22,473 nt of DNA from a virus, in IMG/VR virus record IMGVR_UViG_3300017987_000388, positions 1 through 22,473 of that record, one strand, 5' to 3'. How positions within the stretch are numbered: the first letter of the stretch is position 1; each line of letters begins with the position of its first letter. Shown here piece by piece: positions 10,428 to 13,967 of this stretch. The notes under the pieces were generated by a model. It saw nothing but the letters and a program-made list of their open reading frames with translations. It had not been told where the DNA came from and made no database searches. The translations under genes were made by a program, and so were the position numbers.

Positions 10428-10817
10428 ATGGCACGCGACTACATTGATATCGTCTACGTCGAGGCCAACGGCCAAGAACTCGACGACGTGACATCGCTCG
10501 AAGTGGGCGACACGCGGCCTAACGCCGAGGCGCTCCACACCATGAATCGACGTCGCAAGGCGCTCGGTTACAAGAAGGGCAACCGCGCAATCGAAGTGAA
10601 CATCGAAACGCGCATCCGTAACCCGCGCGAGTTCGATTGGCACGCTCTCTATCGCGCCGGGACGCTGTTCCCGGTCGCCTATGAGGAATCGGCCAGCGGC
10701 ACGAAGTGGGTTCTCCAGGACTTACTGATCACCGAGATCACGCCATCGCACAACAGCGACGGCGAGTCGATGGAGCGCATCCGCTGCCTTGCACTGGATC
10801 ACTACCCGGAGGCGTAG
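10428..10817 (+). CDS. Tail tube protein, Mu gpM-like
   Basis: This is a 129-residue protein directly after the sheath, close to Mu gpM (118). AAGGAG lies six bases before the ATG. IDIVYVEANGQEL, the EVGDTRPNAEALHTMNRR stretch, ALGYKKGNRAIEVNIETRI and the final ITEITPSHNSDGESMERIRCLA are the strands and loops expected of a contractile-tail tube subunit, hexamers of which stack to form the channel for DNA. The identification rests on both pattern and position. Confidence 0.88.
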   Translation: MARDYIDIVYVEANGQELDDVTSLEVGDTRPNAEALHTMNRRRKALGYKKGNRAIEVNIETRIRNPREFDWHALYRAGTLFPVAYEESASGTKWVLQDLLITEITPSHNSDGESMERIRCLALDHYPEA

Positions 10818-10818
10818 A

Positions 10819-11388
10819 GTGAAGGATCTCGAAGCACAGGCACTCTCGAAGCTCGCAGCTATGCGCGCCGGGAAGCGCCACCTGAAGCCAGGGGCGTTGC
10901 CTGTTGACGGTACGCCGTTTCTCTGGCGCGTGCTCACGAGAGGCGAGAAACAAGAGTGCGAAGCGGCAGCTGTTGCGCGATTCGCAGAGATGGGGATACC
11001 TGTCGAGCTTCGCGGTCATCAAGCCTTCGAGGATGAGCTGACAACACAGGTGCTGTGGCTCGCGATGCGCGATGCGGATAAGCCGGAGAGGCCGTTTGCG
11101 ACGGACGCGAAAGAGGTTCGAGATCTGCTCACCGCAGACGAGTTAGACGTTCTCTGGACGAAGTACGCCGACTTCGAGGAAGAGGTCAACCCAGACGAGC
11201 TCACGATAGACCCGGAGCTCAGTGCCGAGATCGATCGTGCGCTAAAAAAAAAGGACGCGAGAGTTTTGATTTCTTTCGGGTCACGTTCGCTAGCGAACTA
11301 TTTGCTTGCTACGGACAACCCGCTTTCGAGCTCACCGATGCCCAGATCCGAATTTGGCGAGGACTCAAGCACGGAGCCGCAGAGCTAG
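10819..11388 (+). CDS. Tail assembly chaperone, short (unshifted) product
   Basis: This 189-residue protein starts at a GTG one base after the tube stop. The gene lies between tube and tape measure, where phages encode the G/GT-type chaperones that coat the tape measure before tube growth. The predicted helical, acidic body (residues 10-140) includes PFLWRVLTRGEKQECE and DELDVLWTKYADFEEE. After the A9 run at 11244-11252 the unshifted frame continues for another 45 residues of Ser-rich, low-complexity sequence and stops at 11388. The downstream tail looks much less protein-like than the one reached by -1 shifting. This follows the known scheme in Mu gp41 and lambda G. Confidence 0.85.
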   Translation: MKDLEAQALSKLAAMRAGKRHLKPGALPVDGTPFLWRVLTRGEKQECEAAAVARFAEMGIPVELRGHQAFEDELTTQVLWLAMRDADKPERPFATDAKEVRDLLTADELDVLWTKYADFEEEVNPDELTIDPELSAEIDRALKKKDARVLISFGSRSLANYLLATDNPLSSSPMPRSEFGEDSSTEPQS

Positions 11389-11471
11389 CCGGCAGCGGAA
11401 GCGACGACGGTATAGCGCGGTTCAAGCTCGTGCCCAGAAAGTCAGGTCTAAGTGCCGCGCGGGAAACGTAA
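10819..11471 (+). CDS. Tail assembly chaperone, -1 frameshift fusion product
   Basis: Shifting back one base at the A9 run joins 10819-11250 to 11250-11471 and gives 217 residues. The added 73 residues include SFDFFRVTFASELFACYG, then ELTDAQIRIWRGLKHGA, aromatic-rich sequence that looks like a folded domain and resembles the T part of G-GT chaperones, which recruits tube subunits to the chaperone-bound tape measure. The frame stays open over 220 bases and ends at a TAA 20 bases into the tape measure gene. No credible ribosome site or start codon exists for this segment alone. Transcriptional slippage on nine A's could give the same protein. Confidence 0.75.
11244..11252 (+). promoter_or_regulatory. 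Slippery A9 run for -1 frameshifting
   Basis: Nine A's follow CT and precede GG. Codon phase is CTA AAA AAA AAG, which contains the heptamer A AAA AAA in the phase needed for tandem -1 slippage. It is placed near the 3' end of the chaperone gene, as expected for a programmed site. Confidence 0.75.
11285..11298 (+). other. Perfect 14-bp palindrome downstream of the slippery site
   Basis: GTTCGCTAGCGAAC can form a five-base-pair stem with a CTAG loop. It lies 33 bases past the A-run, farther than the five to nine bases usual for a frameshift stimulator, so a role is doubtful. Confidence 0.3.
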
Positions 11472-13050
11472 CGTCGAAGTAGGGGTCACTTCCAAGTCCC
11501 GCGACCTGGACAAGGACCTACGGAAGAACCGGAAGCGGTTCCAGGCCTTCGGCAAGAAGGCGCGCCGGGATCTTGCTCGCAGCTTCAGTGGCGTTCGCAG
11601 AGATCTTGTCGGTGCGATCGGGGTAGGCCTCGGATCCGCCGGTGTTGTCTCGGCCGTTCGCGGGCTGAACGAGTTCGAGACTCGAATGACGCGACTCGGG
11701 ATTCAGGCCGGCAAGTCCAGACAGGTAATGGACGGTTTCCGCAAGACCATAGATAGGCTGAGCCTATCGTCTGGGATTTCGCGAGACGATCTCCTCGGAG
11801 TGTCAGCTCAGTTCGTCTCGATGACAGGTGACTTCGCGACTGCAGAGCGAGCCCTCGACGTGTTCGCGCGAACAGCGGCGGCCTCCGGTGCTAGCACTGA
11901 GGATCTGGCCGGCGTCGCCGCATCGCTAAAGACGGTGTTCGATGTGGACGCCGACGACTTCGAGAAGGCGTTCTCGATCCTACTAGCGTCTGGTAAGAGA
12001 GGCTCTGTCGAGCTTCGGCAGATGGCGTCTCTGCTGGGTCCGATCGCTGCCGGTTATGCTGAGTTCGGCAAGACTGGCGTTAGCGCATTGGCGGATATGT
12101 CAGCGGCCTTCCAGGTGATACAGGCGCGCTTTGGCTTCAAACCAGACCAGGCGGCGACAGCCTTCGAGGGACTGTTCTCAGCGATCACGAAGAACGCAAA
12201 GAAGTTCAAGGGAGTGAAGATCTTCGAGAGAGGACAGGATGGTCGCAAAACGCTGCGGCCGTTTGCTGACATAGTTGACGACATCTCGAACTCGCGGCTA
12301 GCGAAGGACCCGACGGCGATACAGAAAGCATTCGGTCGCGTCGAGGCGTATCGCACATTCAAGGTTCTCGCGAGGAATAGAGATGAGTGGCGCAATATCG
12401 AGGCCGCGACCAGGGACGCGAACGACGTCTCCGAGGACTATGCCAAGTTTCAGCAGTCGGCGGCTGGCAAGACCTCGAAGGCATGGGCGGAGGTTAAGGT
12501 TGCTCTAGCTGCTGTGTTCAACGCGGAGCTCCTGAACGTTTTCGCTACCGGGCTGAAGGTTATCGGCGGGGTTGTCAAGGATATCGTTGACGCACTGAAG
12601 GCCGCCGAGGATCTGATCGACAGAAGCCAGAGCCGACGGATACGGCGGCGACAAGACACCGGCGGGTTCCTTGGGGCTGCCACGTCGCTTGGGGCGCGAT
12701 CTGGGAGCGGCGGTGGATTAGCGGCGCAGGTCGAAGCCGGGGTCTTCACGGATGTGCAGCGCCGAGAAGCGGATCTTGTACTACGAGAGGGGCGCAGGCT
12801 TGGCGTGATACGGCGAGACGCCAGTATCGACCCGAAGAAACTTGACGAGATATCGCAGATATCGAGGCGGGGCCAGTCCGATCGAGGCGGGGCCAGTCCA
12901 CGTAGTATCGCGCGGGCTATCAATGCTGCGCAGCGGATCAAGGGCTACCCGGAGAGCAAGGTCGAGAGCCGGGTCGTAGTGGAACTAGACGACGATCTGC
13001 GGATCAAAAAGAAAGAGCGTCGTGAGCGCACGAACTGGGTAGAACGCTAA
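11452..13050 (+). CDS. Tail tape measure protein (short)
   Basis: This 532-residue protein follows the chaperone, overlapping its shifted frame by 20 bases, and starts at a GTG with a weak AGGT site. A basic N-terminus (GKRNVEVGVTSKSRDLDKDLRK) leads to a hydrophobic helix at 52-68 and then the PhageMin_Tail-type core, with NEFETRMTRLGIQ, GISRDDLLGVSAQF, ASTEDLAGVAASLKTVFDV and ELRQMASLLGPIAA. A second hydrophobic stretch is at about 348-382. The C-terminal 150 residues are basic and flexible. Tape measures set tail length at roughly 0.15 nm per residue, so a tail near 80 nm is expected. A 20-bp tandem duplication changes reading frame at residues 470-483. Codons ATA, AGA and AGG are commoner here than in neighbours. 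Confidence 0.88.
   Translation: MPRGKRNVEVGVTSKSRDLDKDLRKNRKRFQAFGKKARRDLARSFSGVRRDLVGAIGVGLGSAGVVSAVRGLNEFETRMTRLGIQAGKSRQVMDGFRKTIDRLSLSSGISRDDLLGVSAQFVSMTGDFATAERALDVFARTAAASGASTEDLAGVAASLKTVFDVDADDFEKAFSILLASGKRGSVELRQMASLLGPIAAGYAEFGKTGVSALADMSAAFQVIQARFGFKPDQAATAFEGLFSAITKNAKKFKGVKIFERGQDGRKTLRPFADIVDDISNSRLAKDPTAIQKAFGRVEAYRTFKVLARNRDEWRNIEAATRDANDVSEDYAKFQQSAAGKTSKAWAEVKVALAAVFNAELLNVFATGLKVIGGVVKDIVDALKAAEDLIDRSQSRRIRRRQDTGGFLGAATSLGARSGSGGGLAAQVEAGVFTDVQRREADLVLREGRRLGVIRRDASIDPKKLDEISQISRRGQSDRGGASPRSIARAINAAQRIKGYPESKVESRVVVELDDDLRIKKKERRERTNWVER
12861..12899 (+). repeat. 20-bp tandem duplication within the tape measure gene
   Basis: Bases 12861-12879 and 12881-12899 are identical over 19 positions with a period of 20, so the two copies are read in different frames (SRRGQS and then DRGGASP). 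With one copy removed the gene would stop at a TAG directly after the repeat, giving 477 residues instead of 532. Confidence 0.9.
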
Positions 13051-13967
13051 TGGACGAGTGGGCACATCTTCTATTCGAAGCCAGCTACGGCGGGATGAAG
13101 CTCGACGTTGTCGGCGTCGAGGACAATGTGAGCCGTGATGTCGTGGTTACCACTTACCCGAGGCGGGACGGCGGACACGTCGACGACCAAGGAGCGGTGC
13201 CAAGAGATTGCCGGATCGTCGTCGTGTTCTTTCCATACGAAAACGAGACGACTGGGTCACACATTCAGCGGATGGCGGCGTTCAAGGCGTTGCTCCACGA
13301 TGGCAAGTCTCATCCGTTCGTGCACCCACTGACGGGGACCTTCGAGGCCAGGCCAAGCGACATCCGACTCAGTGCCGACGCACAGGAGCGCAACTGGATC
13401 ACGATGAGTGTGACGTTCCTCGAAGCCAGCGAAGAGCCGGCCGTGTTCGAACTCGGCCCGGGCTCACCGGTGCGTGCCGGTGTCGAGGAGGTGCTCGCGG
13501 CAGGCGTGGACCTCAAGAGCGCGCTGGACGATCTCGGCGAGACGTCCACGATCGCCGACGACGCCGACGCACTTGCCGAGTCATGGGAGGAGCGCGCGGA
13601 CACGATCAGCGCCCGCGAGATCAACCTTGAGCTCAACGATCTGGCCAACGACATCGCCGACGCCACTGACGAGCTAGAGCTTGCCAGCGACGTCGCGAAC
13701 TACCCCACAATCCAGGCATTCGATCGCCTGCGGAACAACCTGCGCAATCTCGCCGACACGGTCATCTCCAGGTCGCCGCAACTCATCAGCCACGGCGTTA
13801 CGCGGACGATGCCCTTGATGGCAATCGTGTCAGAGCTCTACGGTGACGACGACGCAGACACGCGGTACCAGCAGATCCTCGAGCTCAACGACATCCGCGA
13901 TCCACTACGCGTCGAGGCCGGGACGACGCTGACCGTACAGGCGCCCGGGAGCTCTGATGGCTCATGA
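13050..13967 (+). CDS. DNA circularisation-family baseplate protein, Mu gpN-like
   Basis: This 305-residue protein starts at an ATG overlapping the tape measure stop (TAATG). Residues 1-95 fit the DNA_circ_N domain, with WAHLLFEASYGGMKLDVVGVED, TTYPRRDGGHVDDQG and HPFVHPLTGTFEARPSDIRLS. In Mu, gpN is a tail protein of the baseplate hub; the circularisation name is historical. The middle (140-235) is acidic and helical. Residues 254-298 (MPLMAIVSELYGD...ILELNDIRDPLRVEAGTTLTV) look LysM-like. It is much shorter than Mu gpN (about 490), mostly through a reduced middle. It overlaps the hub gene by 11 bases. Confidence 0.88.
   Translation: MDEWAHLLFEASYGGMKLDVVGVEDNVSRDVVVTTYPRRDGGHVDDQGAVPRDCRIVVVFFPYENETTGSHIQRMAAFKALLHDGKSHPFVHPLTGTFEARPSDIRLSADAQERNWITMSVTFLEASEEPAVFELGPGSPVRAGVEEVLAAGVDLKSALDDLGETSTIADDADALAESWEERADTISAREINLELNDLANDIADATDELELASDVANYPTIQAFDRLRNNLRNLADTVISRSPQLISHGVTRTMPLMAIVSELYGDDDADTRYQQILELNDIRDPLRVEAGTTLTVQAPGSSDGS

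Follow-up and report, generated by a model that had tools for sequence, protein, structure and literature searches.

A two-copy 19-base repeat in the tape measure gene of a Mu-like phage fragment: probably an ordinary short duplication in a length-tolerant linker

Mu-like phages encode tape measure proteins that belong to PF10145 and to PHROG 28 and 794, and the genes around them follow the order sheath, tube, chaperone, tape measure, DNA circularisation protein and hub. The tape measure gene studied here resembles these systems in both its domain match and its gene order, but its product is short (532 aa), and its relatives are only 33-36% identical to it over the full length. A second point of comparison is offered by contingency loci, which are phase-variable short tandem repeats. 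The present locus shares with them a direct repeat within a coding sequence, with a unit length that is not divisible by three. In contrast to those loci, which consist of many near-identical units, it has two copies only, and these lie in an essential structural gene. What the C-terminus and the interior of a tape measure protein contribute has been described for the lactococcal phage TP901-1, in which about 60 C-terminal residues are needed and removal of the last 30 abolishes plaques, lysogens and tails, whereas an internal region tolerates deletions (PMC5099701). We liken the present protein to that of TP901-1 by analogy only; the latter is the 937-aa protein of a distant siphophage. A literature search for tandem duplications in tape measure genes contributed nothing to the comparison.

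The window analyzed here is a whole virus record of 22,473 bases, a viral contig assembled from a metagenome. As well as the tape measure protein, it encodes a Mu-type portal, a contractile sheath, a tube, a DNA circularisation protein and a Mu gpP-like hub protein, and it is therefore regarded as a fragment of a Mu-like contractile-tail phage. The assignment of the gene as a tape measure gene, which had been made in the original prediction from the letters alone, is supported by a match to PF10145 (PhageMin_Tail) at residues 98-281 (E = 1.3e-16, above the curated cutoff) and by matches to PHROG 28 (1.5e-24) and PHROG 794, both of which are families of tail length tape measure proteins. The gene follows those for the tail tube and the chaperone and precedes those for the baseplate hub, an order kept in the relatives L002, L004 and L005, so that family matches and gene position agree in identifying a phage tail tape measure protein. 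As had been described, its stop codon overlaps the ATG of the next gene in the junction TAATG (Table 1).

The tail assembly chaperone gene (10789-11388) has a feature of its own. It contains an A9 run at 11244-11253 with an in-frame A AAA AAG, after which the -1 frame continues without a stop for 72 codons, to 11471, and has the look of coding sequence. In L002, L004, L005 and L014, a run of A8-A9 followed by G is found at the matching place. This is probably a G/GT-type programmed -1 frameshift site such as that of lambda, which has been reviewed (PMC5009743).

Table 1. Features of the tape measure region, in coordinates of the window
Feature	Position	Strand	Evidence or reading
Tape measure gene, 532 aa, GTG start	11452..13050	+	ORF; PF10145; PHROG 28, 794; relatives L002, L004, L005
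Poorly conserved tape measure linker holding the repeat	12618..12900	+	alignment gaps; codon-phase scores; pLDDT
Repeat copy 1	12861..12879	+	read as (I)SRRGQS
Spacer base G, unlike either flank (T, A)	12880..12880	+	sequence
Repeat copy 2	12881..12899	+	read as (D)RGGASP, in a different frame from copy 1
Coding stretch after the repeat, ending in the conserved C-terminal motif RVVVELDDDLRIKKKERR	12901..13047	+	codon phase; local alignment to L004/L005 C-termini
Next gene, DNA circularisation / baseplate hub protein	13050..13967	+	PF07157, E = 4.4e-10; phrog_184 baseplate hub

An exact-repeat search of the window found the 19-mer ATCGAGGCGGGGCCAGTCC twice, in identical copies with a period of 20 bases, just as the original prediction had described them. 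At lags of 10-60, the window contains no longer exact repeat, and the length is far beyond chance, since the longest repeats in 20 first-order Markov simulations reached only 9-14 bases. Copy 1 is preceded by T, copy 2 is followed by A, and the single base between them is G. A clean 20-base copying event would have put T or A in that place, and the repeat is therefore not a perfect, fresh duplication. Either the spacer G is a later substitution, or 19 bases were copied together with one extra base.

To see which of the possible frames is functional, the three phases were scored by codon preferences derived from the window's remaining genes. Over 12900-13047, the other two phases fall 32.5 and 40.1 nats below the current, two-copy frame, which thus has a strong coding bias over the last ~50 codons. 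Homology points to the same frame. The motif at the end of the protein aligns with KIVVELDDGLRERKAERQ, the extreme C-terminus of the L004 tape measure protein (580 residues), and the L005 protein gives much the same alignment; none of 2000 shuffles was as good. As L004 and L005 have almost the same sequence, the two together amount to roughly one independent witness. The alignment to the 529-residue protein of L002 is weaker (10 of 2000 shuffles as good), and the other two frames of the same C-terminal DNA give lower alignment scores against the relatives. The relatives' tape measure genes are intact (529 and 580 aa), each abutting the same downstream tail gene. When one 20-base period is removed in silico, the protein ends as ...ISRRGQST* after 477 residues instead of 532, a loss of 55 residues that had been foreseen. 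Based on codon bias, C-terminal homology and the junction with the next gene, we suggest that the two-copy, 532-residue form is almost certainly the normal working gene. The earlier view that the long form is the real one is thereby upheld. The earlier statement that the duplication extends the protein is misleading in wording, because the last 55 residues are the conserved end of the protein and not an added tail.

The conserved domain extends to about residue 390. The repeat lies beyond it, in a linker that leads to the C-terminal motif and aligns poorly among the relatives. A structure model built from a shallow alignment of four sequences gives low confidence in the linker and the C-terminus, with pLDDT of 22-35 for residues 401-510. 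Between L004 and L005, 28 differences fall in the 174-base bin of residues 465-522, compared with 0-8 in each other bin. Little or no codon bias is seen at 12618-12719 or over the repeat itself. At 12618-12719 the +1 phase scores 8.3 nats better, with 13.2 nats in the best segment (12622-12654), but a gene at 75-629 in the same window reaches 13.1 nats, and the reading that this stretch was once translated in the +1 phase is only suggestive. The weak codon bias would fit past frame changes, but as a signal that is not unique in the window it proves nothing. The segment 12622-12654 encodes the arginine-rich RSQSRRIRRRQ in codons that are atypical for the window; a shift of one base raises its score by 13 nats. 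Codon bias gives no support to a compensating indel immediately before the repeat, since at 12809-12858 the current frame scores best.

Taken as a whole, the locus is very probably a short tandem duplication of an ordinary kind, or else a complex indel, fixed in a length-tolerant linker, with the two-copy sequence as the functional allele. The event would have been either an older duplication or a complex indel in which 19 bases were copied and one more base was added. It would have been fixed in frame within the linker of a Mu-like tape measure protein, where the two-copy sequence joins the upstream frame to that of the conserved C-terminus. Because a 20-base duplication shifts the frame, the change must have been accompanied, at once or through a nearby indel, by a compensating frame change, and either of the two may have come first. 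This compensating change is deduced from the reading-frame requirement rather than from an observed one-copy ancestor.

It might also be proposed that the repeat is a mosaic recombination scar, in which a foreign middle part of the gene was joined to a resident C-terminus. The gene is indeed mosaic relative to L014 (L003), the nearest relative by its sheath (91% aa identity): with a boundary at ~11422-11632, the two tape measure proteins are nearly identical over their first 50 residues, beyond which identity drops to about 40-45% despite the similarity of the sheath. The codon bias, which is lowest at 12618-12719 and across the repeat, would also agree with a join. However, the visible breakpoint is near 11600, away from the repeat, and L014 ends at tape measure residue 191, before the repeat, so that no join can be demonstrated there. 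We consider this origin improbable.

Slightly less probable still is an assembly or sequencing artefact, in which the true sequence has one copy and the second was made by joining overlapping contig ends. The window is a metagenome assembly and the repeat unit is short, and no second, independent record of the region turned up: the only other match to the 19-mer is in L007, where no tape measure match is found, and is taken as a chance match. Scans of viral records and genomes yielded no locus that is both close and spans the repeat. On the other hand, the one-copy form stops directly and cuts off a C-terminus that is conserved and strongly coding, and an artefact would have had to restore the frame by luck, a matter of roughly one chance in three that arises only if the gene was otherwise broken. 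Nor would a simple overlap join be expected to give the spacer G.

It has further been proposed that slippage between one and two copies toggles the full-length tape measure protein or alters its C-terminus. Direct repeats 20 bases apart can be lost through replication slippage, and the loss of one copy does truncate the protein in silico. But there are two copies only, with a boundary degenerate by one base; an exact-repeat search of the tape measure genes of L002, L004 and L005 found no comparable short-lag repeat; and neither a one-copy allele nor any other sign of variation was seen among the scanned records, where no close relative spans the repeat. The truncated product would lack a C-terminus of the kind that is essential in TP901-1, and by this analogy the 55 residues lost would inactivate the protein and yield dead particles rather than a variant. 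The infectivity loss in TP901-1 thus argues against a viable or useful off state, and the most likely effect of copy loss would be death of the phage, not switching. The proposed copy-number switch of the C-terminus therefore finds no support, and we regard it as very improbable. It is scarcely credible that the repeat is a reversible switch by which a fraction of the phage population makes a C-terminally truncated tape measure protein serving some separate purpose.

Annotation should retain the 532-residue reading, and "correcting" the repeat down to a single copy should be avoided. Beyond annotation its significance is small: the repeat is real, was correctly described and is of an ordinary kind. 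It may serve as a small example of how the linkers of tape measure proteins absorb indels without loss of conservation at either end of the protein.
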